From Branchiostoma floridae (Eukaryota; Chordata; Leptocardii; Amphioxiformes; Branchiostomatidae), in NCBI RefSeq assembly GCF_000003815.2, contig NC_049984.1, positions 21,194,864-21,258,863 of the forward strand: a stretch of 64,000 nucleotides of DNA, given 5' to 3'. Position 1 is the stretch's first letter. Every line of letters starts with the position of its first letter. Below, one piece after another: positions 23,500-48,065 of the stretch. The translations under genes and the position numbers were made by a program. The notes beneath the pieces are model-generated. The model worked only from the letters and a program-made list of their open reading frames with translations. It was not told the DNA's origin and did not search any database.

Positions 23500-24170
23500 A
23501 TCTATTATTCCTAGCTATTCTTTGCGTGCAATGTCGGGTACTATCATTGCTCTGTTAGCCGTTAATCTTTTTCTGTTGTACCTTACACAAGTTACAGATA
23601 CCAACACACGAGTTTTAGCAAGGCTGATCCAACAGCGCTCCTAGCGGATTCCAAGATAATACTCAGCCCAGAAACTTGACAGTACTATACAGAGAAGGTA
23701 CACATCGGCCAAGGTTATCTCACATCGTCACGTTTGCTAACAACCCATAGGTCTCTACAGGTCAGTTTATTTGGACAATCATTAGCGAATAGAGTATGAC
23801 GTTATTACTTTCTGACAGCTTAAGCTTTCCCACGTCTGGGGCCGATGACGTCAGCGCACTGACCTTCTGTACTTTGTATTAGGCTCGTAAAAACTCCTCG
23901 AGCCCAGAGGTTTTACTGTGTTTAGTTTGTTATGCTAAGATTTACTACAAAAAAACTGTCGTCTTCAAATTAGCTTTTGATGAATACAAAAGTCTGTCAA
24001 CAACATGAAAGCTCCTTGAGAAGACCAAATTCTTACAAGCCATCCTTAACCCAATTTATCTAATAAACAATATGACAAATAATCTTTTTACAAGAACTCG
24101 TATTGTTTGATATGAAAAGGTGACTCAGAAAAGAAGTCAAAGTCTACAAGTACGAACCTAATTTTAACGT
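23500..24170 (-). repeat. Downstream-flank module of the cysteine-rich peptide genes, copy 1
   Basis: The module includes CCGATGACGTCAGCGCACTG, ACTCCTCGAGCCCAGAGG, TTATCTAATAAACAATATGA and GGCCAAGGTTATCTCACATC. It matches, in inverse, the sequence after genes B and C (42780-43330, 47340-48060). It lies downstream of the truncated gene copy D, as expected if whole gene units were duplicated. Confidence 0.8.
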
Positions 24171-24229
24171 AAAAGCACAAAGACACAGTGAAGGAACGTT
24201 TGATGAATTTATCTACAGTCAAAAATAGA

Positions 24230-24545
24230 TAAACATAACATTGTGATGTCGACGGTCTGCGTGCTTTCTCATGTCAGCGTCTACAAGGACAAAGAAAGGA
24301 TAACGATTGGTCATGAAACGCTGTTAATGCTAGCTTTAAAGATTTAAAAAAAAATCCACAATGTTAGCATTTGTGTGAATATCAACTTAATGTCTGATAC
24401 ATGTAGTATGATAGTAGTATGTCTGGTATTATGAGAACTTACCGTGTAGATGAGCTCTTAATGGTGGTAACTGCAGGTACACGGAACCAGGTACCAGGTT
24501 GGACTGCCCATGTTGAGATCACCGTGGACAGTCATACTTGAATTC
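24230..24545 (-). pseudogene. Truncated cysteine-rich peptide copy (copy D)
   Basis: Positions 24458-24542 encode the last third of the peptide, SMTVHGDLNMGSPTWYLVPC, then TCSYHH and a stop. This is nearly identical to gene C. The 3' UTR exon (from 24280 downwards) is also kept. Upstream of 24542 the homology ends abruptly and runs into downstream-flank sequence (24560-24760). The signal exon, the first six cysteines and the promoter are missing. The stop has shifted two codons past the usual end, and the usual poly-A signal reads GATAAA. It cannot make a secreted peptide. Confidence 0.85.
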
Positions 24546-24559
24546 GAGTATCTAATTAT

Positions 24560-24780
24560 TTTTCTGTTGTACAGATATCAACACACTGGATCCATCAGCG
24601 CCACTGGGGGTTCTCCACCTAATGGTGACCCCATGGCAATAACAGTATCAGTTGTTCTATACAGACAAGGTACACATCGGCCAAGGTTATCTCACATCGT
24701 CACGTTTGCTAACAACCCATAGGTCTTTAGAGGTCAGTTATTTGGACAATCATTAACTAATAGAGTCCATTCCAAGTCAC
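24560..24780 (-). repeat. Partial downstream-flank module joined to copy D
   Basis: CAGATATCAACACACTGGAT, GGTACACATCGGCCAAGGTT and GGACAATCATTAACTAATAG match the flank modules at 23590-23800 and 27760-27990. Its junction with copy D at about 24543-24560 is the duplication breakpoint that destroyed that gene. Confidence 0.7.
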
Positions 24781-25479
24781 CGTGTGGATGTCTGTTGCCA
24801 TTGTTAAGAATTGATTTCAAATTTTTGTAATTGTATGTCTGGGACATTTGATACTTTAGAAATATTTTCAACGCAGTTTCAGCGTTATAAATAATTCTCA
24901 GGTTCTGTAAAACTTTGGAAATATTCATGATGTGGAATTGGATACTTCTAATGGTTTCTAAACATTGATAACAGCATTCCACCATCATTTACCATTTTCT
25001 ACCATTTTTTGTAAAATTTTGTAATAGGTCAGTGGGGTGGGAAGAAAGAAATTCACACATACTTGCAAAGTATGGTTGGGTGCCATGCAACAATGGCCCA
25101 CCACAAGGACCAACCAGTGCCCAGCAGTGACATGTAAAAATATAACCGAGGCAACAATGGGCCTTACTTTTATAGGGGCAATAAACTAGTTTTACCATTT
25201 GGCAAAGTTTACAAATATTTGTAAATATTTGTAAATGTGAAATAGTCACACCGATGACAATTATTCTAAAAAAAGACAGTTTTGTGCAATTGTTTTTAAA
25301 ATGTTTCAAATAAAAGTATTCAAATAAATTCAAATAGATTATTATTTTCTGAGTCAATTTTAAAAAAAAAATCATTGTGGCTTAAACATTCTTTTATTCA
25401 AAATAATTCAAACTTGTTACAAATATCACCTAAAATCCCTCATGGTAACTTGGAATGGAATCTAGAGTATGTTATCAGT

Positions 25480-25870
25480 ATTTGACGACTTTTTCCACGT
25501 CTGGTACCGCTGACGTCAGGGCACTGACCGTCTGTACTATGACTATGTCGTGGTTTTAAACTCGGCAAAACTCCTCGAGCCCAGAGGCTTTGTTGTGTTT
25601 ATTCCGTTAAGCTGAAATCTATTTTTCTCTATAAATTATTTTTGATAAATGTAATTGTCTGTCGACAACCATAAAAGCTCCTTGAGAAGACCAACTCTAC
25701 CGTCCTACAAGACATCTTTAGCCCAACTTATCTAATAAACAATATGACAATTAATCTATTTACAAGTACTCGTATTGCTTGATATGGAAGCGTGGCTCAG
25801 AGTAGAAGTCGACGAATGAAAATGTCTGCAAGTGCGAACCTAATTTTCACGTAAAAATACACCAAAAAAA
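25480..25870 (-). repeat. Downstream-flank module, copy 2 (behind gene A)
   Basis: It includes TGGTACCGCTGACGTCAGGG, AACTCCTCGAGCCCAGAGGC, TTATCTAATAAACAATATGA and ACTCGTATTGCTTGATATGG, shared with the other flank copies. It directly follows the gene A 3' UTR on the minus strand. The 24790-25480 interval between the modules is AT-rich, with no gene seen. Confidence 0.75.
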
Positions 25871-25894
25871 ACGAAGTAAAAGAACGTGTCGTTT

Positions 25895-25978
25895 TGGTGG
25901 ATTTATTTAGTTCAAAGATAGATAAACATAACATAGTGACGTTGACAGTCTGTGTGATTCGATGCGCCATCGATGCCT
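25895..25978 (-). other. Gene A 3' UTR exon with poly-A signal
   Basis: The acceptor TTTTCAG lies just above 25978. The exon carries AATAAA (minus strand, 25902-25907). It is homologous to the third exons of B (from 42615), C (from 47164) and D (from 24280), all sharing a GACxGTC..ACGTCAC.AT.TT core. Confidence 0.7.
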
Positions 25979-26129
25979 CTGAAAAGACAAAAGACGACAG
26001 GGATTAATGATTAGTTAATGCCATCTCAAAATAGCAAAATAGAGATGTCAAACTGAATATGCAGTTTGACTTTGTTAAGATTTTATACTGAGGGCTAATA
26101 GCCTAATAGCTTACCACGTCGAAGAAGTT

Positions 26130-27147
26130 TTAGCTGCAGGTGCACGGGACCAGCCACCAGTTGGGACTGCCGAGGTTGAGATCACCGTGGACAGTCATAC
26201 CTTGCCCACCACAGCAGCACAGGGCGTGGCCTGAACCAGACAATACCCCGCCACAGTTACTGGTGTAGCACTGCGCGCCTACTAGGCACGGACTGGACCG
26301 CTCCAGTCCAGAGGACTTCTCTTTTCCATTCGTCACGTGAATCACAGCGGCTGGAATAGAAATTTTAATTTTAGATAAAAAGTTTTTATAATATCAAAAG
26401 ATGCACGTCTAAATACTTCGCTTGAATATGTATTCATTCATCCACTTTTGAGTAAAGAGAAACGGTCTGCGGTCCAACTTGCATTACAGTTTTTGGGGAA
26501 TGCCTGTCAGGGTTTTAAAGGCAGCTTTAGCACTATTCGAGCATTAATGTGGACATATTCTGGATAAAAAGTCAATCTGTATGATGCTGACATCTACTGA
26601 ACTATATTCCCAAATTTACATCATGTTTCTCATTTTGAACTGTGAAAACGGCGCATAAATAAGCCACACGAGGGTTCATTAAATATTAACCCCTAGAAAT
26701 TAGGCCCTAATCCAGCGCGCTGACTTAAGCGAGATTCTCACGGCACAGCGGAATCAAATTTTTACTCCGTGGATGACTCGGTATTGAATGGAATGGAATA
26801 TAGTTGCTTCATCTTATTACATAGAAAAGTGGCAAAAAATTGATTTTGAAAAATTAAGTTTTACAGCCCTGAACCAGGTGCTTATATTTCTTAGGTTGCC
26901 TTTGATATCCATCCAGTCAGTTTGTCTGAAAATGGATGATCACAAAAGGAATATAGAACAACAGCCAGGTTAATAAGTATAGATGAGTAGAACGGTTAAC
27001 GGGACAAAACCTGCTGTAATTAGAAAATTTCAAACATTTGTTTGCTCACGGGAAAAGGTAGAATGAATCGGATAGGAAGAAAAGATATGAGTTCCTACCA
27101 TCAGCCACTACCAGTCCCAGCACAAGGAGCAGGATGGCCGTCTTCAT
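26130..27147 (-). CDS. Secreted cysteine-rich peptide, gene A (89 aa, two coding exons)
   Basis: Coding exons are 27099-27147 and 26130-26350 (270 nt with TAA). Exon 1 encodes the signal peptide MKTAILLLVLGLVVAD and ends in phase 1. Exon 2 encodes the mature peptide from about AAVIHVTNGKEKSSGLER. It has eight cysteines in the pattern C-x5-C-x4-C-x11-CCC-x22-C-x-C. A non-coding third exon starts at 25978 after a donor at 26115/26114, and AATAAA lies at 25902-25907. The promoter and signal exon are almost identical to genes B and C. I do not recognise the family; it does not fit the big-defensin pattern known from lancelets. A small secreted disulfide-rich effector, perhaps antimicrobial, is plausible but is inference. 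Expression and activity are unknown. Confidence 0.85.
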
Positions 27148-27149
27148 GA

Positions 27150-27400
27150 TGAGGGTTCGTCGCTGAGAGAAGAGAGAAAACTTGTAGTGTAGCTTGTCTC
27201 CACATGTCTGGAACTTAGTCGAGCGGAGAGCGACTTTTATGTCGTTCCGATGTTTACAGTTTGGTCAGAAAAACAACCGTGGAACTCAGGCAGCTGCACG
27301 TTCTATTTTAGAACCAAGGTTTCATCCGCAATTCCTGGAAGCAAAAAAATGAACTTTGAAACGCTGTCCCTGGAAAAGAGTTCTCAAACACCGTTAGATT
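27150..27400 (-). promoter_or_regulatory. Conserved promoter of gene A
   Basis: On the minus strand, going down to the ATG: AAGTTCATTTTTTTGCTTCC, then AGGAATTGCGGATGAAACC, TTCTAAAATAGAACGTGCAG, CTGCCTGAGTTCCACGGTTG, then the TATA-like ATAAAAG (27234-27240), 87 bases above the ATG. The block is near-identical to 41280-41535 (gene B) and close to 46100-46326 (gene C). It contains TTCCAGGAA, a TTCnnnGAA palindrome of the STAT-site type. Confidence 0.75.
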
Positions 27401-27459
27401 ATTCTTTTAAGGGTTTCGATCGATCAATATGTGAGTTCATATCATGACGTCTATTCTGA

Positions 27460-27990
27460 GCCCACTTTTCCATATCAAGCAATACGAGTTCTTGTACAAC
27501 GACTATTTCTCCTGTTGTTTATTAGATAAGCTGGGCTAAAGATGGTTTGTAAGACGGTAAAAAGAAAACCAATATTTGGATTGTTTCGGCGGTCAGCGTT
27601 TGCATGTATCAAAAGCAATCTAAAGAGGAATGTAAATTTCAGCTTAACGAAATAAACACAGAAAAATCTTTGGGCTCGAGGAGTTTTCTCCGAGTCCCCA
27701 CGGCATTGTACAGAAGGTCAGTGCCCTGACGTCATCGGTACCAGACGTCAGAAACTGATAACGTCATACTCTATTCGTTAATGATTGTCCAAATAACTTA
27801 ACCTGTAGGGACCTATGGGTTGTTAGCAATGTGAGATAACCTTGGGTCGACATGTGAAGTCTGTATTAGTGTATAGAACAACCGATGCTGTTATTGCCAT
27901 TAGTCACCATTAGGCAGAGAACCGCTAGTGGTGATGATGGATCCAGTGTGTTGATATCTGTAGGTACAACAGAGAAATAATTGGATACTC
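27460..27990 (+). repeat. Orphan downstream-flank module, copy 3
   Basis: It includes CATATCAAGCAATACGAGTT, TGTTTATTAGATAAGCTGGG, CTGACGTCATCGGTACCAGA and CCTATGGGTTGTTAGCAA. It matches the flanks of B and C in the plus orientation but has no gene before it. It instead abuts the gene A promoter (minus strand), so a gene unit has been lost or rearranged here. Confidence 0.75.
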
Positions 27991-30010: not shown

Positions 30011-30307
30011 CCCACCCCCGCCAACAAAACTTTTAGCTCCTGTAACTAAAACAACAGGAGCTAATTGACTCATTTGCATTAACTGTGTCTTAGCCTTGAT
30101 ATCCTTTGAAATCCAAATTGTCTTCAGCTTGGCAGTTGGTAAATACATCAATGATGCCTTTAAACTCCACTCACCTTCAGGGATGAGTGGAGTGCCGTCA
30201 CTCGGGGAGGTCGCGGACGTCATCAGACGGATCAGATCTCATCGGATGTTTCGACCCTTATCCGTAACATCCTCCTTCTGTCGGGTCCAGCAGTGGTGGC
30301 CAACCCA

Positions 30308-30880: not shown

Positions 30881-31109
30881 TTTCTTTCGAATCAAATTGT
30901 CTTCAGCCTGAATTGTCTTACAACCTTTCCTATTGGACATCTGACATTGTCTTCATTCATAGTTAGAGTATAAAAGACCTGTTTCTTGCAGATCACTTCA
31001 GTGTCACTGACGAAGGAAAGTGGATTCTTTCCGAAACGTCTGACCGTTTCAAAACCATATCCAGTTGCTTGAGTAACTATTTTTGGCGTATCTTATTACC
31101 TGGATGTCT

Positions 31110-32214: not shown

Positions 32215-32350
32215 ATCCAGACACAGAGTCAGGACGTTCTCGAAGGAACTTTATTTTGGTTCCAGGAATTGTGGATAAAACCCTGCAGCTGCTTCTAAAA
32301 TAGAACGTGTAGCTGCTACAGATCCACGGTTGTTTTTCTAACAGAACTGT
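32215..32350 (+). repeat. Orphan promoter module of the cysteine-rich peptide genes
   Basis: GTTCCAGGAATTGTGGATAA, GCTTCTAAAATAGAACGTGT and GATCCACGGTTGTTTTTCTA match the promoters at 27.3, 41.35 and 46.15 kb. No signal exon follows; the LINE tail begins about 180 bp later. It is the remnant of a lost gene copy. Confidence 0.75.
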
Positions 32351-32725
32351 ACACTACGGATAATCATGGCCACAAGACATAGGATAACCAGTGTGAACTT
32401 CTGGTGACCTGCTGAAAGTACTGCTGAATCAGACATCGCTATCAGAACTTTCTAAGAATCACGGATGTATTCAAACTCTGAAAACATTTAGTGGCAAAAC
32501 TAACAATCTTTGTATTTAGTAGAAGCAAACATGAATGAATGAATGAATGAATGAACTTTATTGCACGACATTTGCACATGGTACAATTGTAAGGCAACAG
32601 TGATAAGTCAATTAATACAATGATATTCGTCTAAGGTCTATAACTACATACATGTATAGTACAGGAATATGAACATAAATGGCGTATTGACATAGTGTAA
32701 TATGCAAGTTAAACAAGTCGATCTG

Positions 32726-35700
32726 TTACTGTACAATAGATTCTCTCTTTTTTAGAGCATTACATATGTATTGGCCTAAATACGAAGATATGTTGTCTGG
32801 ACATGACATAAGTAGATTGAAAGTACATTTGTTTGTCTTTGGTAAAGGTGTGCTAGATTTACATGTGATTGTATCCATTAATTTTTGTCTATCTACGCTA
32901 TATGTAGGGCATGTCATTAGAAAATGGTACTCATCTTCAATACCATCTTTACATGAAGGACATTGCCTCTGGTTGGCTGGTATATTCCGGTACCGACCTT
33001 TTTCTATTTCCAAGCAGTGTGAACTGATTCTTAATTTGGTTATGTTGACAGCAAAAGCTTTATTATGAACTGACGAGAGGTAATTTTCAAGTATAAATTG
33101 ACTTTTGATTTGGGAATAGGTTTTTAGTTTGTTGCAACTCTTTATTTCTCGTCGCCAGCCAGAGAGAAATGTGTCTTTTAAACGTTCTTTGAATATGTTA
33201 CCAAAGTGTTTGGCATCAACCGCAGGGCTTAGCCAAACACTTTGGAAACCATGCCTGCACAAAATATCTTGAACATGGACAGTCCATTCTAGTTCATGTT
33301 CAACTGCTGTGTCATATGCCTTCTTTACAATTCTATCATTGGGTAGGGTACGTAATCTAAGCCAGTATTTAATAAGTTGTGTTTGCATGTCAACGTATAA
33401 TGGAAACATTCCTAATTCGCCTCTGATGGCAGCGTTTACAGAGGCTCTTGGGACACAGAGAAGCATTTTGCAATAGTTAAGAAGAACATATTCCAAGTCA
33501 GGTATCTCATAGGACGTTGTAGGCTGTTCTAATAAAATATTTTGATTAGCTAGGGTTTTTGAATTATATAAGACATTCAACTTATCTTTGTACTTCTTAA
33601 AACGCACTAGAACAGGGCGACATGCTACTGTATCAGATTTCTTCCCAGTACGGGCAACCTTAAGAACTAGATCATGTACATTAGATCCCAAAATCGGAGA
33701 CAACATGTTGCAGACTTTCTCCCTAATGTTTTCATTTGGAAACTCTACTATACCATTTAGAATTAAGTCTCTGCATCGAATATTGGTCCCTATTACCTCA
33801 CTACAATAAAGTAAAATAGGCTTGACTAGGCTGTTAAACAAATCTAGGGAGAGGGAGATAGACGGATTGTAGTTAGATGCCAATAGAGATTTAAGTTTAA
33901 ACGATGCGCGAAGGGCTTTTAGTCTGATTTGTTTCGTAGCACGATTGAAAGATCCCGATGGGGTTATGTCTATTCCAAGATATGTATAAGAGTCTGTGAT
34001 GTTTATGGTCTGTCCCTGTATTTGGAAAGGGGAGCGCTGATTTTTGTATGCTCGTCCATTTTTAGAGAAAACCATGACTTTGGTTTTATCCCTGTTGATG
34101 GATAGTTTCCACAGGGAGCAGTACTTATCTAGTCCTTTGAGACACTCCTTTAGTCCTGCTTCTGATCTGGACAGGAGCACAAGATCGTCTGCCCAGAGCA
34201 GGCTGCTTATGGGGGTATCTTTTAGAAATACGGGATCGGATGATGGTGAGGTTAATAAAGTTGGGAGATCATTTACAAAAAGATTAAAAAGAAGCGGACT
34301 TAGGTTACAACCTTGGCGTACTCCACGTGTTGATTTAAAGTAATTTGACAAACCTTTTGATGTTTTAACACAGAATTCTACATTGGAATACATGGATTTT
34401 ATCATACTAAAGAACTTTCCACCAATGCCAGAAGATAAAAGTTTGTAAAATAACCCATTTCTCCAGACTGAATCAAAAGCCTTCCTGAAATCCACAAAAC
34501 AGGCATATAATTTTCCTCCAGGTACAGATATCTGTTGATCTATTAAAGTTTTTAGAACAAATATGTTATCACTTGTCCTGAAGTCTTTTCGGAAGCCGGA
34601 CTGAAAAGGAGATAATATGTTTTCGTTTTCAAGAAAGTGCTGCAATCGTCTGTTTAGTATAAATGTGAATAGTTTTCCAACGCAGCTGGAAATAGCTATC
34701 CCTCTGTAATTTGACGGGTTTGAAGTGACGCCGCTTTGAAATATTGGGACTAAAATGCTTTTACTCCATACTTGTGGGAAATTGCCGGACTGAAGGATGA
34801 CATTGAATAGTTTTTTTAGTGATGGGATAAGTTTTGTGTCTCCATATTTCAGCATCTCATTGAGAATCGAATCAATACCACATGCTTTGTTGTTTTTCAG
34901 ATTTCGTAAGCCATTCTTTACTTCCTCTTCGGTGATTTCGAAATCTAAGGGGTTTCCCGTTTGGTTTTCAAGATTATTGATGATGTTGTCTGTTTGTTTC
35001 TTATTGTTTCGGTCTATTGTGGTCCTATTGTTCATTCTATTGAGAAGTTGAGGCATTTCTTGTATTACATGTTGATGAAAGTCTTTGTCAGATGTGTCGT
35101 TTTCCGCTAAATTGTTTAGATTTTTAAAGTGAGTTCTCCAGGCTTCGTGAGTTATGCTGTCATCTTCCTGTTGTTTATCATTGTCATTTAGTTGTTGCTG
35201 TTTCATTTCTCTCCAAAATTGTTGTGGGTTTACTTTGCTAAGTTTGCTAAGATTTGTCCATTGCCTCTCTTTAAATAGTCTTTTTTCTGTTTTTAGTTTT
35301 TTCTTATATAATTTAAGGTTACAGAAATATGCATGGCGGATGTCGAGTCTCCATGGACATCTAGAGAACTGAGCAGCCAGTTGGTTTACTTTACGTTTGA
35401 GGGAAAAACAAGATGATGTGAACCATGGTTTGCTTTTCTTTTTCTTTTTCTTATTTTTCCTGTAAACAATCTTCCGGAGAGATTTATCGGCCACATCAGT
35501 AATAATATTTGTAATTTCTTTTACAGCATTGTCCACATTTGGGAAAGGGTTATTCATAAATTTTTGTAAGTTTGATAATGTCGAGGGCGCTAGTAGTGCT
35601 TCAGTGAATTTTGCATGAGAATCCTCGTCCCATATGTATTTTGTTGGTAATGCGTTCGCCGGGGTATTTTCTTGTTTCACATAAGGAGAGTAGTTTGTGG

Positions 35701-36577
35701 ATATGGAACATGACAATGAACAATGGTCAGAAAACACGGAGAGGTCATTTACTTTTAAATATTGAATTTTGGAGAGGAATTCTGAATTTACGATATAATA
35801 GTCTACCAGGCTTGAGCCATTGTATTTGTGACATGTAAGTTTTCCCGATAGATCACCCGGTACCCGTCCATTTAAAATCACGAGGTTGGCTGCAGAGCAA
35901 AGGTCTAGGAGTTGGTTGCCATATCTGTTTACTCCTTTGTCACAGCTGGACCTAGCCTGTATATCTTCTCTTACATCTAAAATTTCATGGCTCAAACAAT
36001 CGTCGTGGATAAAGGATTCCTGAAGGGATGCTGTCCTGGCATTTAGATCACCTAAGAGTAATACGTCTCCTTGATTTGAAAATTTTGATATATCTTCTTG
36101 TAAAGTTTCAAAGACTAGGTTGTTTTCCATTTTGATAGATGAAGAATTTTCAGGGGAGAAATAGGCACATCCGACATACAAATCTCGCTCCAGACCAAAG
36201 AAATTTCTATCTAACTTGCACCAAAGAATATCTGGGTGCCCTATTGAAAGTTTTGTCACGCCTTTTGAGAACTTGTTTCTAAACATAATAACTACGCCGC
36301 CAGAATTCCTTCTGGATGATTTCTTAGCACTTCTATCACTTCTATAAAAACTAAATGAATCTATTCTAAAGTTTTCCCCTGGCTTAAGCCAGGTTTCTTG
36401 CAAGCAAATAAAATCAAAATCAGCTAAGTGGGAAACAAAATCTTCGTCTTGGCATTTTCGCCTAAGGCCGCCTTGGATATTCCAAGAACCGAATTTCAAA
36501 GCAACCTTCTGAATTGTCATACTAGTGTTACAAAGGGCGAGCTTGGCTACATTGTCAGCAGAGTGATTTTCATACAT
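32726..36577 (-). CDS. LINE ORF2: AP-type endonuclease and reverse transcriptase (1283 aa)
   Basis: The N-terminal endonuclease motifs are KFGSWNIQGG (about 28-37), FICLQETWLK, LLLGDLNART and SDHCSLS (about 284-290). The central reverse transcriptase has CFVDFRKAFDSVW, TRGVRQGCNLSPLLFNLF and the catalytic SSLLWADDLVLL (A/WADD box), then YTYLGIDIT. A C-terminal zinc-knuckle-like block reads CPSCKDGIEDEYHFLMTC. The protein would nick target DNA and prime reverse transcription of the element RNA. No stop or frameshift is present, so the copy may be competent. ORF1 ends 120 bp upstream. Confidence 0.93.
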   Translation of the reverse strand: MYENHSADNVAKLALCNTSMTIQKVALKFGSWNIQGGLRRKCQDEDFVSHLADFDFICLQETWLKPGENFRIDSFSFYRSDRSAKKSSRRNSGGVVIMFRNKFSKGVTKLSIGHPDILWCKLDRNFFGLERDLYVGCAYFSPENSSSIKMENNLVFETLQEDISKFSNQGDVLLLGDLNARTASLQESFIHDDCLSHEILDVREDIQARSSCDKGVNRYGNQLLDLCSAANLVILNGRVPGDLSGKLTCHKYNGSSLVDYYIVNSEFLSKIQYLKVNDLSVFSDHCSLSCSISTNYSPYVKQENTPANALPTKYIWDEDSHAKFTEALLAPSTLSNLQKFMNNPFPNVDNAVKEITNIITDVADKSLRKIVYRKNKKKKKKSKPWFTSSCFSLKRKVNQLAAQFSRCPWRLDIRHAYFCNLKLYKKKLKTEKRLFKERQWTNLSKLSKVNPQQFWREMKQQQLNDNDKQQEDDSITHEAWRTHFKNLNNLAENDTSDKDFHQHVIQEMPQLLNRMNNRTTIDRNNKKQTDNIINNLENQTGNPLDFEITEEEVKNGLRNLKNNKACGIDSILNEMLKYGDTKLIPSLKKLFNVILQSGNFPQVWSKSILVPIFQSGVTSNPSNYRGIAISSCVGKLFTFILNRRLQHFLENENILSPFQSGFRKDFRTSDNIFVLKTLIDQQISVPGGKLYACFVDFRKAFDSVWRNGLFYKLLSSGIGGKFFSMIKSMYSNVEFCVKTSKGLSNYFKSTRGVRQGCNLSPLLFNLFVNDLPTLLTSPSSDPVFLKDTPISSLLWADDLVLLSRSEAGLKECLKGLDKYCSLWKLSINRDKTKVMVFSKNGRAYKNQRSPFQIQGQTINITDSYTYLGIDITPSGSFNRATKQIRLKALRASFKLKSLLASNYNPSISLSLDLFNSLVKPILLYCSEVIGTNIRCRDLILNGIVEFPNENIREKVCNMLSPILGSNVHDLVLKVARTGKKSDTVACRPVLVRFKKYKDKLNVLYNSKTLANQNILLEQPTTSYEIPDLEYVLLNYCKMLLCVPRASVNAAIRGELGMFPLYVDMQTQLIKYWLRLRTLPNDRIVKKAYDTAVEHELEWTVHVQDILCRHGFQSVWLSPAVDAKHFGNIFKERLKDTFLSGWRREIKSCNKLKTYSQIKSQFILENYLSSVHNKAFAVNITKLRISSHCLEIEKGRYRNIPANQRQCPSCKDGIEDEYHFLMTCPTYSVDRQKLMDTITCKSSTPLPKTNKCTFNLLMSCPDNISSYLGQYICNALKKRESIVQ

Positions 36578-36696
36578 AATAGTGTTGACTAGCTATAGGT
36601 AATATGAAATTGTGTACCTGTATAGTTCCATGGATGTATAACTACTCACAGATTGTCCAAAGTCTTCCAATCTATGCATACCATACTGTCCGACTT

Positions 36697-38244
36697 TCAC
36701 TGCTTCAGGAAGTCCGTCAGCATATGTAACAGCTTCTCCACAGTCTGCTGTTTGTCCCGTGTGTGGTTCCAGTCGGTCCCCTGGTGGCTTGGTGCACGTG
36801 CTGGGTTCCTCGGGTACATCTGCGACGGGTCCCGTGGAGTGTTCCAGAGGGGTGGGGGGTGTTGTCCGCGCCGCATGTAGGGCTGAGTGTTTGGCATCCA
36901 CTGTGGTCTTCTTGCTGGTTTGGTGTGCTGTCTGGAGTCCATGGCTTCCTGGTGGTGCCTCAAGGTGCGCTTAACATCAGCCACCATCAACTTGACGCCA
37001 CCTGCGTCATGTTTGAGGTGGATAGCGTCCCGTGTGTACAGTGAACGGTCCTGAGAGAGAAGTCTGTGTCTGATGTAGATGAGTTTGTTGTCTTCAAGGC
37101 AGGACTGTTCGACGGAGTTGTTGTAGGTGGCTATGTTTTTGTTGAGGGTGGACTGCATGTTTGTTCCTCTCGTTAGGACTTGTGATATGGCGATGTTTGC
37201 GTTGGGGTATGACTTCTTTATACAGTCAATCAATTTGTGCGTTTGTTCAATACAGATGTCAACGCTGTCGGTTCGGTGTTTGGTGTTGTCCAAGTCGTTC
37301 GATGCCACGTGAATGATGACTAGTTCAGTGTTTTTGTCGGGGAACATGGCAGCGTTTTCTGAGGCTTTGCGGAGTGTGGTTGATTTTGTTATGGTCGAGC
37401 TTTTGTGTTTGAACATTATAGTGGGATCAACTTCATTCCATAGAGAGTCAGCAAAAACTCTCACCTGCGTCGTCGCGTTCACCGATGTTTTTGTTGTCGG
37501 GGCTACCGGGGATTGTGTGCCGGGAACTGCTGGCGGGGTTGCCGGTGGCTGGGTGTCGGTAGTTACCGGTGCCTCGCTGCTTGTGGCTCTCGGGGCACGT
37601 GGCTGTGTGTTGGCGGTTGATGGGGCCTCAGAGTCCGGGGATGTCGGTGTGGCTCTCGGGGCACGTGGCTGTGTATTGGCGGTTGATGGGGCCTCAGCTC
37701 TCGGGGCACATGGCTGTGTGTTGGCGGTTGATGGGGCCTCAGAGTCCGGGGATGTCGGTGTCTGCACGGCGGTAGAAGAGTTAGGGTGTTCTAGGCCAGA
37801 AACCACTTCCGCGTAGAGGCGCTGGATTCTGGAATCGTCCTGTTGAGAGTTGCCGTGTGCGCGACTGGTCGTCGTGCTGACAGATTGAGGTTGATTTAAC
37901 AGTAGTGTTAGCTGGGCTTGTAAAGCTTCCTGGTCAGCCTTTTGAGAAGAGATCGTTTGGGCCAGGTCTTTGGAGATTTCGCGTTGTCGCTCTAGCTTTG
38001 TGTTCAGATCTTGAATCTGTCGAGCCTGTTTCTCCACCTCTTTCTTCCTGTTTTGAACATTAGCCTTCAGGTCATTGATACACTTCTCTTGATTGTCCAT
38101 CGTGACCTTATTGCTGAAGACAAGCGACTTTAAGTCGTTCAGTTCGTCCACTAGGGAGGGTCTCGTGTACCGAGTTGCACTTTTCACTTGTTGACTTGTC
38201 TTGGGGGTCGTCTGTTGGCAGCGCGCGCCGAGAACGGCTTCCAT
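36697..38244 (-). CDS. LINE ORF1: coiled coil plus SGNH/GDSL-like esterase domain (515 aa)
   Basis: Residues about 30-115 are a heptad-rich coiled coil (KCINDLKANVQNRKKEVEKQ). Next is a Pro/Thr-rich linker with about four repeats of SEAPSTANTQP.APRA. The SGNH hydrolase-like domain follows: VRVFADSLWNEV (nucleophile block), VIIHVASNDLDN (N-D block) and TRDAIHLKHDAGG (D-x-x-H block). Esterase ORF1 proteins of this kind are known from CR1 and L2 elements; they bind RNA and may act on lipids. The first 137 nt overlap the upstream ORF in another frame. Confidence 0.85.
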   Translation of the reverse strand: MEAVLGARCQQTTPKTSQQVKSATRYTRPSLVDELNDLKSLVFSNKVTMDNQEKCINDLKANVQNRKKEVEKQARQIQDLNTKLERQREISKDLAQTISSQKADQEALQAQLTLLLNQPQSVSTTTSRAHGNSQQDDSRIQRLYAEVVSGLEHPNSSTAVQTPTSPDSEAPSTANTQPCAPRAEAPSTANTQPRAPRATPTSPDSEAPSTANTQPRAPRATSSEAPVTTDTQPPATPPAVPGTQSPVAPTTKTSVNATTQVRVFADSLWNEVDPTIMFKHKSSTITKSTTLRKASENAAMFPDKNTELVIIHVASNDLDNTKHRTDSVDICIEQTHKLIDCIKKSYPNANIAISQVLTRGTNMQSTLNKNIATYNNSVEQSCLEDNKLIYIRHRLLSQDRSLYTRDAIHLKHDAGGVKLMVADVKRTLRHHQEAMDSRQHTKPARRPQWMPNTQPYMRRGQHPPPLWNTPRDPSQMYPRNPARAPSHQGTDWNHTRDKQQTVEKLLHMLTDFLKQ

Positions 38245-39037
38245 GTTGTGGCTTTCCCTCTTTGTTTTTTCCAGTAGAGTTGCGAACTTTTGAAAGTGGA
38301 GTTAAAATGATGTTCTCGAGACCTCCCAACACCTTACGGAGAGTGGGCGATGTGACCAGCGACTTGGGAGTTGTGTTTTCGGATGGATTTTCTTTCTCTA
38401 GGGTCAGGTCTACCGTCACAGGCGGAGTCGTAGTTGTCTCTGTGTTGGTTTCAGTCGTAGTAATGGCGGACGCCTCATCTTGTAAATTGGTCTCCATTGT
38501 TTCAAGGTTGTTGTCTATTGTTTCAGTTCTCTCTGCTGCCAGATCGTCATTGTCATGTCCGCCATCTTGGGCGTCGCAGGATACGCCAGTTGGCCTATTG
38601 TTAACGATTTCTTTCGCTCGTGGAAAGATTTCGCTAGTGTACCAGTTTGATCCATTGCCGTGTATGAGGATTGTGCCGGTGTTGTAGAAGTGAATAGTTA
38701 CGATTTTGACGTTGTCTCCGGTCTCGGTGGGTTCAGTGACGGATAACTGTGGGCCCTTCCAGGTGAACTTGTAGCCGGTTTGTTTGCCAAACGATTCGTT
38801 GAGTATGGCTTTGGTAGCGTCTATCCACTCTGGTACACGATCTTTGGAGGTACGGAACTTTAAACTGCATACCTTCGATTTGTTGGCGTCTGTGTGATCT
38901 TCGATGATGGTTTCAAACTCGGAGATGTTCTTTGCCGATGTGTTCCACGCCTTGGTCTTGGTGTTGCCGGACCTTGTCCTGTATCGCTTTGTCTCCGGCT
39001 CAGGCGTTCCGCTGTCTCTGCTTGTTTCACGTCCCAT
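38108..39037 (-). CDS. LINE upstream ORF of unknown function (about 309 aa)
   Basis: The start is taken at MGRETSRDSGTPEPE (ATG at 39037), although the frame stays open to 39103. The N-part is basic and polar. A folded middle has KVCSLKFRTSKDRVPEWID, YKFTWKGPQLSVTE and TIHFYNTGTILIHGNGSNWY, reminiscent of a small beta-rich nucleic-acid-binding fold. The tail is acidic and Thr-rich. It overlaps ORF1 by 137 nt in a different frame, which suggests translational coupling or frameshifting. I do not recognise the domain by name. Confidence 0.7.
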   Translation of the reverse strand: MGRETSRDSGTPEPETKRYRTRSGNTKTKAWNTSAKNISEFETIIEDHTDANKSKVCSLKFRTSKDRVPEWIDATKAILNESFGKQTGYKFTWKGPQLSVTEPTETGDNVKIVTIHFYNTGTILIHGNGSNWYTSEIFPRAKEIVNNRPTGVSCDAQDGGHDNDDLAAERTETIDNNLETMETNLQDEASAITTTETNTETTTTPPVTVDLTLEKENPSENTTPKSLVTSPTLRKVLGGLENIILTPLSKVRNSTGKNKEGKPQHGSRSRRALPTDDPQDKSTSEKCNSVHETLPSGRTERLKVACLQQ

Positions 39038-39300: not shown

Positions 39301-39429
39301 GAAATCAAAGGCACATATAACCCGTGCACCTGTACTGTCATGACTGGGTATCCCTCAACAAGTGGTATCTCGGCACAGTCCTTCTAGAAGTCAACAAAGG
39401 ACAGGGTGACATATTCCAAACTTTTGGAT

Positions 39430-40110: not shown

Positions 40111-40152
40111 GGGTATCTTTTTTAAAAACTTTTCCGTGTCCGCCACGGCACT

Positions 40153-40701: not shown

Positions 40702-41279
40702 GCCGGAATTAAACCATACACAAGTGCCATATAATGTTTCGCGACCAGTAAAACCGTTTTCATCAGTCCAGCTATAGCCTATAGCTCTTTTGACCTACAT
40801 AAATTCACTCATCCAGTTCCTTTTGTCACTTAGCTTTCTTAACGATATATCAGATGCTACAGATTCAGAGTTTCAAAGAACAATGTGCTGTTATTAATTA
40901 ATATAAACTTAATTATTTCTTGTCTTTGTCTTGCAAAGTCTGTTTTTCCCCCTCCAAGTTCGTGCCAGGTCAAAACTAGGAGGGTATCTTCCAAGATCGA
41001 GAAGAGTGGAAAAGACGCTTTTAGATGACAGGCTCTAAGGCCTACCTGGAAAGATGTAAGTTGCAAGCTTTAAGGTGACAGGTGAAGAAAAGATGTGGTT
41101 CTTAACAGTGGAAATGCAGTGTACGTGAATGACAAAAATGTCTACTTTACTTTCCTCTTGATTCCTTTGACTTCGAAGATATTCCATAAGGCATCCATAA
41201 ACATTGTGACATCCAAAACTAGATGACTCCCACATCGATTATATGAATTCATATTTTTATCGAATAAATCCCTTATAAG

Positions 41280-41535
41280 GATAATCTAACGGTGTTTGAG
41301 AACTCTTTTCCAGGGACAGCGTTTGAAAGTTCATTTTTTCGCTTCCAGGAATTGCGGATGAAACCTTGATTCTAAAATAGAACGTGCAGCTGCCTGAGTT
41401 CCACGGTTGTTTTTCTGACCTATCTGCAAACATCGGAACGACATAAAAGTCGCTCTCCGCCCGACTTAGTTCCAGACATCTGGAGACAGGCTACACTACA
41501 AGTTTTCTTTCTTCTCTCAGCGACGAACCCTCATC
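41280..41535 (+). promoter_or_regulatory. Conserved promoter of gene B
   Basis: It contains CTTCCAGGAATTGCGGATGA (41340 on), TTCTAAAATAGAACGTGCAG, GAGTTCCACGGTTGTTTTTC, TATA-like ATAAAAG (41443-41449) and a TTTTCTTTCTTCTCTCAGCG leader just above the ATG at 41536. It is nearly identical, in inverse, to the gene A promoter over about 250 bp. Confidence 0.75.
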
Positions 41536-42414
41536 ATGAAGACCGCCATCCTGCTCCTTGTGCTGGGACTGGTAGTGGCTGATGGTAGGAAGTATTGTCT
41601 TTCTTACGTGTCTACTTCTTGCACTACTGCCCTTCCCATTAAAAATAGGTTTCATCTGGTCATATTGTTTCTTTCTGCCCATGGCCATGTGTGCAAACGG
41701 ACGTTTGGAACTGTAAAGATACAGCAGATTTTATCCCATTAACTCGACGTTTCCCATGGAAATTTCTACCCCAACAAGCCAGATAGGATGCCTTTTTTTA
41801 CCCTATACTCCTTTTTAGTCATTCTTTACAGCAGTGAGTAGCCAGGGACGAGCAGAAAATGGAACAATTCAACGGTGGTTTTCAATGGGCCTTTGCCACA
41901 ATGTTCACTTTTTACTTCTAGTTTAATACACCCTTACTCTTTCCCGTCTGAAAGCATTGTCGGACGTGGTGTGCCGGACCTTCATTGTAATATTTTCAAA
42001 CGAACCAGAGATATATGCAAGCAATGACTAATACATTCCAAAGAAACTGCAACACACGATTGAATGTCACTGTCTTACACAAAACAAAAAAGGAATGAAA
42101 TGAACAATTTAATAGGTTAATACATAAATGGACGAACTATTTCAGACTTGTATTTGGTATGAATGAAAATGTTACACTATTCTCCAGCCGCCGTGATTCA
42201 CGTGCCGAATGGAAAAGAGAAGTCCACTGGACAGGAAAGGTCCAGTCCGTGCGTAGTAGGCGCACAGTGTTACTCCGGTAATTGTGTGGCAACAATTTCT
42301 GTTGGGGGCCACACCTTCTGCTGCTGTGGTGGGCTAAACACGATGACTCTCTCCGGTGATCTCGGTGCCCTCGGCAGTCCACCCTGGTCCCACGTTCCGT
42401 GTAGCTGCAGCTAG
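41536..42414 (+). CDS. Secreted cysteine-rich peptide, gene B (91 aa, two coding exons)
   Basis: Coding exons are 41536-41584 and 42188-42414 (276 nt with TAG). The signal exon is identical in protein to A and C (MKTAILLLVLGLVVAD). The mature part starts AAVIHVPNGKEKSTGQER. Cysteines follow C-x5-C-x4-C-x11-CCC-x24-C-x-C, so the second loop is two residues longer than in A and C. Of the three, B is the most diverged after the CCC (GGLNTMTLSGDLGALGSPPW). A third, non-coding exon starts at 42615 after a donor at 42435/42436. The poly-A signal position reads AATAAC (42689-42694) instead of AATAAA. Function unknown; a host-defence role is inference only. Confidence 0.85.
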
Positions 42415-42779
42415 CTACTGAAGCTCTACTTCACGGTATGTTATCATACTACTAGAGATACTAATGCCATACTAATAGACTAATGGTTGATGATAAAAAT
42501 GCTAACATTGCAGATTTTAAAAAATATTTACTATACATTTTTTAAAACCTTCAATGCTACTATCAACAGCGTACCATGTCCGATCATCATCTCGTTCTTT
42601 CTTTGTCCTTCCAGATGCTGAAACAATGACGGAGAACACAGACCGTCGACGTCACGATGTTTTGTGTGTCTATTTTTGAATTTTCATAAATAACAAAAAC
42701 GCTCTTTCAACGCGTCTTTGTGTTTTTCCTCAAAAGTTAAGTCCGTAATTGTAGACTCTCTGTAGACTATCTGTCCAAG

Positions 42780-43330
42780 TTTCCATATCAAGCAATACGA
42801 GTACTTGAAAAGATGTTTCTCCTATCGTTTATTAGATAAGCCAGGCTAAATATAGTTTTGTAAGTCAGTAGAGTTACTCTTATCATGGAGCTTTTATGGT
42901 TGTCGACAGACGTTTGTATCTTATAAAAGCAATTTGAAGAAAATTTTTGATGGTAAATTTCAGCGTCAAAATATAACACAGAAAAATCTGGGCTTAAGTA
43001 GTTTTCCTTGAGTTTCTTACCACGACATAGTGCAGAAGGTCAGTGCGCTGACGTCATCGGTACCAGACGTGAGAAAAAGCTTAAGCCGTCAGAAACTGAT
43101 AACGTCAAACTCTATTAGTTAATGATTGTCCAAATAACTGCCTTTTAGAGACCTATGTATTGTTAGCAAACGTTAAAGTGACGATGTGAGATAACCTTGG
43201 CTGATGTGTTCCTAGGCGGACCATTAGGTGAAAGCCGCTAGGGGCGCTGTTGGATCAGGCTTGCTACGATATACTCAGTTTGCTGGTATCTGTATGTACA
43301 GATGGGATACTCGATAAGTCACATTGCACC
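42780..43330 (+). repeat. Downstream-flank module, copy 4 (behind gene B)
   Basis: CATATCAAGCAATACGAGTA, CGTTTATTAGATAAGCCAGG, GCTGACGTCATCGGTACCAG and AGACCTATGTATTGTTAGCA match the other flank copies. It confirms that B and C belong to the same duplicated unit and orientation. Confidence 0.8.
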
Positions 43331-43339
43331 GTCATTGCA

Positions 43340-44280
43340 CGTAAAGAATAGCTAGGTGTAATAAACTGAGTAACTGAAACATACATTATCAACGGTCATG
43401 CTTATATCTACCTGTTGAGGTTCCAAAATCTACATTATCGACATCATCAGCTATGCTTAATATAGTTTAGAATGTAAGAATACATACAGGTTTACAGATA
43501 GCACCCAAGTCAAAATTATCGGTGCTATGTTATCTAGAGGAGACTAGCGAGAAGGAGAAGCTTATAATTGTGTACTTGTATAACTTGTCGTTACCTCCTG
43601 CAAGTATATGACGTAATCAGACGCCATTGATTCAAGGAATAGAGTTAATTCCAGTTATGGCGGCCATTATGGATTCCCGGGGTCATCCGGGTTCATGGCA
43701 CCAGAACGAGGCTCCAGGTGGTGGCAGTTGAGCATTCTACAATATAGGCTGTATTGCAGACATAAGTATGACATCTTTGGGAGTGCATTTCACCCCTCTA
43801 AGGTTGAATACTGCACAATATATGCCTGTTATCAGTAGAAAATATTGTTTTGGACATTTGAACTCGATTTTGGTGATATTTGTTATCACTTTTTTACATT
43901 TTTTAACGGGTGGCCTGAAAACAATTAGTGTCAGTGTTTATATCATCCATGTGTGCTTTGTATTGGTCACTGTGATATAGTAGGTTTACTATTGGGATTA
44001 AACCCTACAAATACATGGAAATATGGGGATGACATGTTTGCGGGTAGAAATTTAGAAGACATTTGGCAGTTGTTCTGATGATTTATTGATGCCAAGATCC
44101 GTTCTGCAAACTACGCTCTATGGGAACATCATGCTGAACTCATGGGGAAGGTGGTGTATGTACCAGGACATGAGACCTTCAGGTTACCTCTAACTCATCT
44201 AACGGATAACATTTGGTCGTTCATATGTAAGATGGGATAAAAGATAAGCCCTACTCGTTTCACTCAGACATGCATTCGAA
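43340..44280. other. Spacer between units, no gene recognised
   Basis: AT-rich sequence with parts shared with the far flank of gene A (for example the TTGTCGTTACCTCCTGCAAG stretch near 43590 and its relative near 28240). A block around 43760-43990 is open but shows no known domain. Confidence 0.4.
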
Positions 44281-44289
44281 CGTTCACGA

Positions 44290-44535
44290 AGGAACCTTGT
44301 TTATTGCTTTCAGGAATTGTGGATGAAACCTTGGTTCTAAAATAAAACGTGCAGCTGCTACAAATCCACGGTTGTTTTGACTAAACTGGGAAGAAGGGGT
44401 AATCATGTGCGCAAACATAGGATAACGTCTGGTGACATGCTGAAAATACGTTTCCAGGAATTGTGGATGAAACCTTGATTCTAAAATAGAACGTGCAGCT
44501 ACTACAACTCCACGGCTGTTTTGGCCAAACTGCGT
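44290..44535 (+). repeat. Two orphan promoter modules of the peptide family
   Basis: CAGGAATTGTGGATGAAACC then TTGGTTCTAAAATAAAACGT occurs at 44310-44375, and TTTCCAGGAATTGTGGATGA then TTCTAAAATAGAACGTGCAG at 44450-44525. They are two copies about 140 bp apart, each with the following CTACAA.TCCACGG.TGTTTT block. Neither is followed by a TATA box or signal exon. Confidence 0.8.
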
Positions 44536-44663
44536 ATTACGGATAATCATTACATGTGCGCAAGACATGACAAGAACTTTCGTCAGACATATCATGATAA
44601 CAAAATTCCTGGAATCGGATGTTTGCAAACCCTGGGGACCAATGAAAACTATTTTTGTATTAA

Positions 44664-45623
44664 CCCTCAAACCACCGTAGCTTTTTTGTGACGTAGATTA
44701 CCGTATGGGGTCAAAACTGACCCCAAAACGTTTTGTACAAATACAGTTTTTTGTGTGAATCTTTTTGTGATTTGTATATATGTATAGGTTCATTAATCTA
44801 TTTGGGGCAGTCTGACATGATTAGGTGAAAATACTTCTAGCTCATTATCATAATTTATGCAAAAGATAATGAGGACCACATTTTGCACCAACGCTATAAA
44901 CCGGAAGGAGGTTTTTGATGCCTGTACCAGCTTCAATGCCATATAGCGCCTGAATGGCTTATGCTAGGGGCACCAAACTTGAGATTTTTTTAGAAAATGT
45001 TGATAGCAAACATTTTCAGTGAACAAAGTATGTTCATCATTTTTTATGTTGCCATGGCAACGGAATTATGACAGACATATTTATTACGAATTTTTCAAAT
45101 TTTGTACTAAACATTTAAGTTTTAAGGTTTTCTTGGCAAATAACAATTGTTTATCACATCTTATTCAATTCAACATAAATTTAAGGAATCAATATTCGTA
45201 ATTTATGCTAATTTGATGACGCCATCAGTCAAAATCAAAGATGGCGGCCGATATTACCTAGATGACGTCATAACGTCGTCATATGACATGATAATGGCAC
45301 AAAAGTTGCTACAATAATTTTTGCTTACAAGTACATCATTTTCTGAAAATTTCGTGATCCTACAATAAGTAGTTTAGGTGTGGGTCGCAAAAGTTTGTTT
45401 AAAAAAATGCTGGGGTCAGTTTTGACCCCACTGGACCATGCATAAACTTTCGAGGATATCTTAATCAACAATAAGTCAATCTCGGCAAAAACGTATAAGA
45501 AATTATAGGACAGATATACATGCAAACTCCTGAAAGGAAATTTGTTTTCGACCAGAAATGACATAATGGCACACATTGATATACGCCTGGGGTCAGTTTT
45601 GACCCTATACGGTGGTTTGAGGG
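44664..45623. mobile_element. DNA transposon with TTAA target duplication (piggyBac-like, non-autonomous)
   Basis: TTAA flanks both ends (44660-44663, 45624-45627). The terminal repeats CCCTCAAACCACCGTA and TACGGTGGTTTGAGGG are exact inverses. Inner GGGTCAAAACTGACCCC repeats occur near both ends. About 960 bp with no transposase. TTAA with a CCC terminus is the piggyBac superfamily hallmark. It sits in the upstream flank of gene C. Confidence 0.85.
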
Positions 45624-46089
45624 TTAAGTAGGTGAAAACATGCTCAGCCATTATAAACATCCTATTCCCAGAACAACCCGACCACTGGTGTTTACTTTAG
45701 CGCCGTAGGTGACCGGTGAAGAAAAGGTGTGGTTCTTTTTAATAACAGTGGAGATGACGCGTGAATAACAAAAATTTTGCAATCATTTTACTTTCCTCCT
45801 AATTCCTTTGTTATAAAGCATCCATATTCTGTTAAACAGGGCATCTAAAAATGTAGATGAATGCTAACATGGATTTTGTAAAGTCACATTTTGATTGACT
45901 GACAGAAAAATTCAACAGCGTTTGAGAACTATTTAATGTGTGCGGTCTAACAAGGGTTGACCCACTGGAGAGAGCTGCATGGAATCGTGGTGTGAAGACC
46001 AGCCGACTGCTGCCTACCGTTGTTTCAGGAATCCCAACAGCAGTATAATCAAATAATGAATAGTGAGTGCGTGAGTTTCCCGTGTCACC

Positions 46090-46326
46090 CAGGCACAGCG
46101 TCCGAACGTTCACGAAGGAACGTTATTCATTGCTTCCGGGAATTGTGGATAAAACCTTGCTTCTAAAATAGAACGTGCAGCTGTCTGAGTTCCACGGTTG
46201 TTTTTCTGACCAAACTGTAAACATCAGAACGACATAAAAGTCGCTCTCCACCCGACTTAGTTCCAGACATCTGGAGACAAGCTACACTACAAGTTTTCTC
46301 TCTTCTCTCAGCGACGAACCCTCATC
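46090..46326 (+). promoter_or_regulatory. Conserved promoter of gene C
   Basis: GCTTCCGGGAATTGTGGATA (from 46130), TTCTAAAATAGAACGTGCAG, GAGTTCCACGGTTGTTTTTC, TATA-like ATAAAAG (46234-46240), then a pyrimidine-rich leader and ATG at 46327. TTCCGGGAA keeps the TTCnnnGAA palindrome although the centre differs from A and B. Confidence 0.75.
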
Positions 46327-46996
46327 ATGAAGACCGCCATCCTGCTCCTTGTGCTGGGACTGGTAGTGGCTGATGGTAGGGTCTCTTTTCTTTCTTCAGT
46401 GTCTCCTTCTTGCACCGCTGTACTTCTTAAACTTCAATAAACTTTCTTCATCCATGTTGTTTCTTGCTATCTGTGTGAGCAAACGGACGTTTAGGATTGT
46501 TAACTTACCGCAGGTTTTATCCCCTTAAACTTGGCTGTTCCACGAAAGCATTGCCTGACACAAAGTGGTGTTCAATGTGACCTTCATTGTAATATTTTCA
46601 GAGGAACTGTCAGTAGAGGAATACATATTTATAAGCAATGACATCATTATTAGCAAGAAATTGCATACACTATTGACTTCTGTTTTCCTAAAGGAAATAA
46701 AGAAGAAACGAACACTTCAATGGACGAACTATTTCAGACTTGTATTTGGTATGAATTTTTTTTCTTTTCCAGCCGCTGTGATTCACGTGACGAATGGAAA
46801 AGAGAAGTCCACTGGGTTGGAGCGGTCCATCCCGTGTCCAACAGGCGCGCAGTGTTACTCCGGTAACTGCGGTGTCGTCATGTCTTCTGGAGGCCACGCC
46901 CTCTGCTGCTGTGGCGGGTCAAGTATGACTGTCCACGGTAATCTCAACATGGGCAGTCCAACCTGGTACCTGGTTCCGTGTACCTGCAGTTACTAG
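46327..46996 (+). CDS. Secreted cysteine-rich peptide, gene C (90 aa, two coding exons)
   Basis: Coding exons are 46327-46375 and 46773-46996 (273 nt with TAG). Signal peptide MKTAILLLVLGLVVAD; mature part from AAVIHVTNGKEKSTGLER. Eight cysteines follow C-x5-C-x4-C-x11-CCC-x22-C-x-C, ending PCTCSY. After the stop there is a donor at 47008/47009 and a third, non-coding exon from 47164 with AATAAA at 47235-47240. It is the closest relative of truncated copy D and is similar to A. The longer open frame that begins at 46565 is intron read-through, not an alternative start. Function unknown. Confidence 0.88.
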
Positions 46997-47329
46997 AGTA
47001 TGTACCCGGTATGTTCTCATACTACCAGACATACTACTATATGTATCAGACATTAAGTTGATCTTTACACAAATGCTAACATTGTGGATTTTTTTGTAAA
47101 ATCATTGGAACTAGCATTAAGAGCGTACCATGTCCAATCGTTATCCTTCCTTTGTCCTTTCAGACGCTGAAACAATGAGAAAAGCACGCAGACCGTCGAC
47201 ATCACGATATTACGTTCATCTATTTTTGACTGTAAATAAATTCACCAAACGTTCCTTCACTGCGTCTTTGTGTTTTTTTACGTGAAAATTAGGTTCGTAC
47301 ATTTAGACCTTTAGTCGATGACGTCTATT

Positions 47330-48065
47330 CTGAGCCACGTTTCCATATCAAGCAATACGAGTACTTGTGCAACGATTATTTCTCCTGTTGTGTATTAGAT
47401 AAGCTGGGTCTTTGTGTTGTTTTACGTGAAAGTTAGGTTTGAACATTTAGACTTTCAGTCGATGACGTCTATTCTGAGCCACGTTTACATATCAAGCAAT
47501 ACGAAGACTTGTTCAACGAATATTTCTCCTGTTGTGTATTAGATAAGCTGGGCGAAAGGTGGTTTGCAAAACGGTAGATTTGGTCTTCTAGAAAACCAAT
47601 ATTTGGATTGTTTCAGCGGTCATCGACAGCGTTTGCATGTATCAAAAGCAATTTATAGAGGAAGGTAAATTTCAGCTTAACGAAATAAACACAGAAAAAA
47701 CTCTGGGCTAAAAGAGTTTCCCCGAGTTTAATACCACGACATGGCACAGACGTGGGAGAACTCGTCAGAAACTAATAACTTCATACTCTATTAGTTAATT
47801 ATTGTCCAAATAAACTGACCTGTAGAGACCTATGGGTTGTTAGCAAACGTGATGATGTGAGATAACCTTGGCCGATGTGTACTTAGTCTGTATAGAACAA
47901 CTGGTGCTGTTTCTGGACTGAGCATCAGGTGGAATCCGCTAGGAGCGCTGTTGGATCAGCCTTGCTAATAAAAGACGCGTGTTGGCATCTGTAAGGTACA
48001 ACAGCTACAGATTAGCGGCTAACAGAGTAATGATGGTACCCGACAATGCAAGCAAAGAATAGCTA
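47330..48065 (+). repeat. Downstream-flank module, copy 5, with an internal duplication
   Basis: It is homologous to copies at 23.5, 25.5, 27.5 and 42.8 kb. Here the segment with CTTTGTGTTGTTTTACGTGA, GATGACGTCTATTCTGAGCC and TATCAAGCAATACGA occurs twice in tandem (about 47265-47410 and 47411-47545). Confidence 0.8.

Follow-up and report, generated by a model that had tools for sequence, protein, structure and literature searches.

A 2025 review names one lancelet antimicrobial peptide (AMP), BjAMP1 (PMC11767717), and big defensins are also known in lancelets (PMC7203481). BjAMP1 is described as a small secreted peptide with a precursor of 97 amino acids (aa), from which the mature form, a cationic helical 21-mer with two Cys, is released at a dibasic site (PMC4683396). 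For the big defensins, which are small, secreted and Cys-containing and are encoded by three-exon genes, six Cys together with a hydrophobic N-terminal and a cationic C-terminal domain are reported (PMC7203481). Here we analyze a stretch of 64,000 nucleotides (nt) of the Branchiostoma floridae genome (the window; assembly GCF_000003815.2, contig NC_049984.1, positions 21,194,864 to 21,258,863 of the forward strand), which holds three intact genes, A, B and C, for small secreted peptides and a truncated copy, D. Like the big defensins the peptides stem from three-exon genes, whereas they carry eight Cys and a core free of Lys and Arg (K/R), and their mature form is unlike that of BjAMP1. Together with a dispersed member, gene F, we read A, B and C as functional genes of a small family, so far uncatalogued, whose secreted disulfide-rich peptides may serve as compact extracellular binders, and assign this reading a probability of about 0.45.

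The gene models were derived by direct reading of the DNA combined with GT-AG splicing. Gene A (minus strand; positions refer to the window unless another contig is named) consists of an exon 1 coding sequence (CDS) of 49 nt encoding the signal MKTAILLLVLGLVVAD (27099..27147), an exon 2 CDS including the stop codon and eight Cys (26130..26350, the exon itself extending to a donor at ~26115) and exon 3, which lies in the 3' untranslated region (UTR) and was delimited by its acceptor and AATAAA (25902..25978). On the plus strand, the corresponding exon 1 CDS of B (41536..41584) and C (46327..46375) are followed by exon 2 CDS, each again including the stop codon and eight Cys (42188..42414 and 46773..46996), and by 3'UTR exons, which for C runs from the acceptor to AATAAA (47164..47240) and for B was placed by its acceptor, its 3' limit being undefined (42615..42700). 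In each of the three genes exon 1 measures 49 nt and encodes the same signal of 16 residues, the exon 2 lengths differ by multiples of three, and the precursors comprise 89 (A), 91 (B) and 90 aa (C). The gaps between successive Cys are 5,4,11,0,0,22/24/22,1 in A/B/C, so that the pattern C-x5-C-x4-C-x11-CCC-x22/24-C-x-C of the first-pass annotation is found in all three translations. From copy D the 5' part is gone; what is left on the minus strand are the 25 3'-terminal codons of exon 2 (24467..24541, 74/75 identical to C) and intron 2, exon 3 and the 3' flank (23449..24466). Donor and acceptor of the 3'UTR intron (intron 2) are kept in A–D, and an AATAAA lies downstream of exon 3 in A and C; none was seen around exon 3 in the scanned stretches of B or D. 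Splicing and direct reading thus bore out three intact genes and a truncated copy at the positions proposed earlier, with the layout of a 49-nt signal exon, one mature exon and a 3'UTR exon in A–C and, in D, from the end of exon 2 onward.

Relatives were sought in the whole genome (513,431,437 bases on 431 contigs), where only the best candidates were scored, so that counts are lower bounds and distant members may escape. Exon 2 of A gave at least four matches at E ≤ 0.001, all inside the window, and exon 2 of B at E ≤ 10 recovered these four, D at E 2.2, together with one match on contig C8 (E 0.44), which contains two stops and looks like chance. A query with the 5' cassette of B (-121..+55) retrieved A, B and C and a further site, C13:6023986-6024149 on the minus strand (77%, E 2.7e-25), which belongs to gene F (C13:6017000-6026500, minus strand, exon 1 at 6992-7040 and exon 2 at 5939-6141 of that stretch). 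Its signal is MKTAVLILVLGLVVAD, the G|CC junction is as in A–C, and exon 2 begins with ATLIPWERAMEKSAGGRATDPC and carries eight Cys in the order C-x5-C-x2-C-x11-CC-x2-C-x15-C-x-C. In the alignment of F with A–C all eight Cys match, as does EKSxG ahead of the first Cys, and the alignment score was reached by 8 (A), 1 (B) and 26 (C) of 3000 shuffles of F in which the Cys were held fixed. The F cassette as query matched itself, A, B and C. Other matches of F on contigs C218, C200, C19 and C6 (E 0.37-5.5) look like chance. Gene F is a divergent single member on another contig, detected solely via promoter and signal exon. A, B, C and F have a common layout, in which a signal exon and a phase-1 intron precede a single exon with the whole eight-Cys domain and the stop codon. 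Since F has CC-x2-C, the CCC triplet, which is present in A–C as claimed, is not a hallmark of the family. Within the reach of these searches, this is a small family made up of one cluster and one distant gene.

No named family had been recognized at first, and the profile and structure-database searches agree: A–C had no credible match in Pfam, NCBIfam and PDB, and Pfam gave no family at E ≤ 10. PurL models (E 0.033-0.2), obscurin (0.24-0.35) and HAP2 (1.1) were dismissed as noise. Scans of bacterial/archaeal contigs and of viral contigs, one of each kind and each with two short peptide patterns, yielded no relative. In the openly licensed PubMed Central (PMC) literature no description of such a family was found as judged by titles and abstract openings, and five sequence fragments of the family had no match in the text of openly licensed PMC papers. 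Metallothionein was considered and set aside because of the signal peptide. The distinction from big defensins holds by Cys count and charge, the six-Cys spacing (gaps here 5,4,11,0,0,22/24,1) and the cationic Cys domain both being absent in A–C.

A search of all six reading frames of the window with a relaxed Cys pattern gave three occurrences, as compared to 0 in 100 random windows generated by a first-order Markov model (Markov-1). In a neutral simulation with substitutions only and three lineages changing by 11.5% each, 5/100,000 runs left every one of the three copies with an open frame and the full set of 8 Cys, and the mean simulated amino-acid identity of 0.58 compares with observed values of 50/73, 57/73 and 50/73. 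The ratio of nonsynonymous to synonymous substitution rates (dN/dS) of exon 2 was 0.57 (0.28-1.16) for A-B, 0.37 (0.16-0.88) for A-C and 0.42 (0.21-0.84) for B-C; with upper bounds of 0.84-1.16 these three comparisons do not show positive selection on exon 2. Judged from the DNA, A, B and C are real and constrained genes.

A further common feature of the intact copies is their 5' cassette (-200..+55), which comprises a promoter with ACATAAAAG at about -95, the 5'UTR and exon 1 and was delimited by comparison of A–C (A, 27093..27347, minus; B, 41336..41590, plus; C, 46127..46381, plus). Over these 255 nt A-B, A-C and B-C differ by 11, 14 and 16 mismatches, and promoter, 5'UTR and signal exon are 94-96% identical at the DNA level, synonymous sites included, whereas alignment gives 46-71% identity for intron 1, 78-83% for exon 2 and 51-69% for the stretch between the stop codon and exon 3. 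Correspondingly, the synonymous rate dS is at most 0.073 in exon 1 compared to 0.47-0.50 in the core. Because promoter, 5'UTR and exon 1 are all near-identical down to synonymous sites, the signal is uniform as one part of a homogeneous stretch of DNA; the contrast of an identical signal with a variable mature part, noted at the outset, is thus real but does not point simply to selection on the signal. For the homogeneity of this stretch, the best explanation is gene conversion, a recent exchange of 5' cassettes or promoter constraint at the DNA level, alternatives which the comparison does not separate. The stretch -200..-123, with a 24-mer of which six near copies occur in the window, was considered as a mobile repeat; this was dropped, as the F promoter has the stretch at the same position, and an ancestral promoter is favored. 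At the other end of the unit, C and D are identical at 74/75 positions in exon 2 as compared to 141/160 just beyond (Fisher p 0.005), which likewise suggests gene conversion.

Alignment to the C unit places A and then D on the minus strand (27445 to 23449) and B (41238-43413) and C (46098-48137) on the plus strand, corroborating the inverted duplicated units. The same comparison located an orphan 3'-flank fragment of another unit abutting the A 5' block in opposite orientation (27444..27892, plus) and three orphan promoter-type fragments on the plus strand (32228..32354, 44277..44388 and, in tandem with the latter, 44452..44532). The junction at 27445, where the A 5' block meets the oppositely oriented 3' flank, is sharp and marks a duplication or inversion breakpoint. 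Tandem duplications are located near B and C at 44272-44522 and 47260-47547, with a spacing of 144 nt in both. By their duplicated and broken copies, the units of the cluster undergo birth and death through duplication and truncation, as the first-pass annotation held. Such copies could also be decaying duplicates without present function, kept alike by gene conversion; the truncation of D, the orphan fragments around the genes, the C/D conversion signal and a dN/dS of 0.74-0.91 in the core outside the Cys point that way. We consider this improbable, as open frames, the 8 Cys, splice sites and a TATA-like site are kept in A–C and F, retention in A–C was rare under neutrality (5/100,000 runs) and exon 2 (78-83%) is better conserved than intron 1 (46-71%).

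With respect to the mode of action of a functional family, the charge distribution is informative. The K/R of mature A–C are confined to a lead segment of 20 residues, in which K26, K28 and R34 are invariant and all N-terminal to the first Cys, while the core is rich in Gly/Ser/Cys and poor in charge, with net values of -1.1, -1.1 and -0.15 for A, B and C and of -1.1 for the F core. The isoelectric points (pI) of the mature peptides are 6.98 (A), 6.98 (B), 7.75 (C) and 5.97 (F). As the A–C core is K/R-free and near neutral or slightly acidic, a cationic antimicrobial peptide, as which the proposed effector could be understood, is disfavored; an antimicrobial role in general is not thereby dismissed, since anionic AMPs exist. 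A mucosal defense peptide, secreted as antimicrobial effector onto gut, gill or skin, would agree with a product that is secreted, disulfide-rich and multicopy, has a conserved leader and is accompanied by broken copies, as described for Mytilus CRP-I (PMC10138031), and, in A–C, with a core free of trypsin sites. Given these pI values, the K/R-free core and dN/dS ratios which do not show positive selection, this role seems doubtful, though it is the likeliest of the rivals. The charge-poor, Gly/Ser/Cys-rich core would also suit a structural peptide that forms part of an egg coat, a mucus net or the gut barrier through disulfide cross-links, in the manner of silkmoth chorion, whose genes are reported with an exon 1 of ~50 nt, divergently transcribed pairs and gene conversion (PMC4639761); furthermore, secreted mucus nets are described as being used by lancelets. 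Just three intact clustered copies and one elsewhere were found, and the strict Cys number and spacing in A–C suits a folded domain, which renders a coat protein rather unlikely.

The preferred reading, a compact extracellular binder, finds a lead in a second set of exons. Among other exons, F has its best match on contig C4, with the same half Cys pattern (E 0.14). The C4 exon as query returned itself, an exon on C5 (79%, E 7.1e-22), a second place on C4 (71%, E 3.2e-15) and F (43%, E 0.0089), along with two stop-containing matches (E 0.24, 0.59). These two C4 exons and the C5 exon (group G) have the pattern C-x5-C-x2-C-x13-CC-x2-C followed by a splice donor, and the G|CC Ala junction is common to the C5 exon and one C4 exon, with the intron phase as in F. 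The C5 Cys exon is preceded by a short exon that resembles a signal exon and has the same phase at its end, and ~2 kb downstream on the same strand an exon encodes a membrane helix, CRKRK, PPAY and PPTY. This resembles the layout described for CYYR1 with signal, Cys-rich domain, membrane helix and PPxY motifs (PMC11399591), and the membrane exon matches the Pfam profile CYYR1 (PF10873) with E 8.6e-6 and 26.7 bits, below the cut-off of 31. For the Cys exon on C5, Pfam returned no CYYR1 match, and neither the precursors of A–C nor exon 2 of F had any match there at E ≤ 10, the CYYR1 profile included. The locus (C5:4674000-4682000, minus strand, frames at 4024-4332 and 1520-2002 of that stretch) may thus be a CYYR1-like membrane gene, in which the signal, Cys and membrane exons would form one transcript. 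Compared with A, B, C and F, the score of group G was reached by 0 to 43/2000 Cys-fixed shuffles, the exons having been picked after the match. TNFRSF14 (E 0.28) and laminin-EGF (E 0.01, 0.041, below cut-off) were rejected as too weak for group G. As a lead only, A–C and F may be akin to these ectodomain-like exons. One could speculate, as a minority scenario, that lancelets freed a CYYR1/STMC6-type ectodomain as a secreted peptide, in that the gene ended after the Cys exon, a C-terminal C-x-C was added and the gene multiplied with a conversion-homogenized promoter-signal cassette, giving new soluble ligands or decoys.

For the family itself, the proposed mechanism would begin with removal of the signal and pairing of the eight Cys in four disulfides, giving a compact, near-neutral and protease-tough extracellular binder. 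Since all mature K/R of A–C lie in the lead segment, a trypsin-like cut after the invariant R34 would release the A–C core without a further trypsin site. The action would most likely consist in binding of a partner outside the cell (a receptor, a glycan or a microbe surface) by a soluble ectodomain-like module, in agreement with the weak kinship to the six-Cys exon of the possible CYYR1-like membrane gene; charge-driven membrane lysis would not be the favored mode. Several points weigh against this reading. The core dN/dS outside the Cys is near neutral and its wide intervals reach >1, and AlphaFold on the 3-sequence alignment gave no fold (predicted local distance difference test, pLDDT, 37.6; predicted template modelling score, pTM, 0.19). 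The rarity of a K/R-free core among base shuffles, reached in only 8 (A), 17 (B) and 20 (C) of 20,000, favors the reading, but a shuffle of base composition is a crude null for K/R absence, and the F core contains one R. Finally, the queries with A (E ≤ 0.001) and B (E ≤ 10) miss group G, which F finds only at E 0.14, and splicing among the three C5 exons is inferred. Overall, the observation of the first-pass annotation, a secreted eight-Cys family without a named match, is confirmed, while its interpretation stands in part, the CCC hallmark, the selection on the signal and the effector in the sense of a cationic antimicrobial having been corrected.

Between A and B a long, open non-LTR (long terminal repeat) retrotransposon is situated on the minus strand (32726-38301), with one frame carrying RVT_1 and Exo_endo_phos (32726-36592) and a second (36697-38301) whose match to GDSL lipase is weak and falls below cut-off. 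By domain matches, the window further contains, all on the minus strand, an exon of a YHYH protein (7875-8225), two sulfotransferase exons (13155-13439, 17221-17550), a RING finger exon (48840-49085) and two carboxylesterase exons (53405-54190, 55970-56275).

If the preferred reading is true, these genes would add another eight-Cys family to the secreted peptides, one that has a dispersed member and possibly stems from a membrane adaptor. Such a family would illustrate the origin of novel secreted peptides in a basal chordate, and the cluster would be a ready system for the study of promoter-signal cassette conversion.

Among known systems, the CYYR1/STMC6 family (PMC11399591; PF10873) shares with A, B, C and F a signal followed by a Cys-rich domain, and F resembles the six-Cys exon of group G. 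Unlike CYYR1/STMC6 as described, A, B, C and F have a stop after the Cys exon, without membrane anchor or PPxY tail, and two extra Cys (C-x-C) at the end; the link is weak (E 0.009). Mytilus CRP-I (PMC10138031), for which six Cys in the order C-C-CC-C-C, a dibasic propeptide site, four exons and positive selection are reported, resembles A–C in its conserved signal, variable Cys-rich mature exon, tandem copies, pseudogenes and unsettled function. In contrast, A–C have eight Cys, no dibasic site and no positive selection shown by the dN/dS comparisons; the order is C-C-C-CCC-C-C in A–C and C-C-C-CC-C-C-C in F, unlike CRP-I or a knottin, and the precursors are without KR/RR. The silkmoth chorion genes (PMC4639761), which encode structural proteins of the insect eggshell, can be likened to the cluster by gene features, not by sequence: besides the short exon 1, the divergent pairs and gene conversion mentioned above, they are described with one main exon and high-Cys classes.

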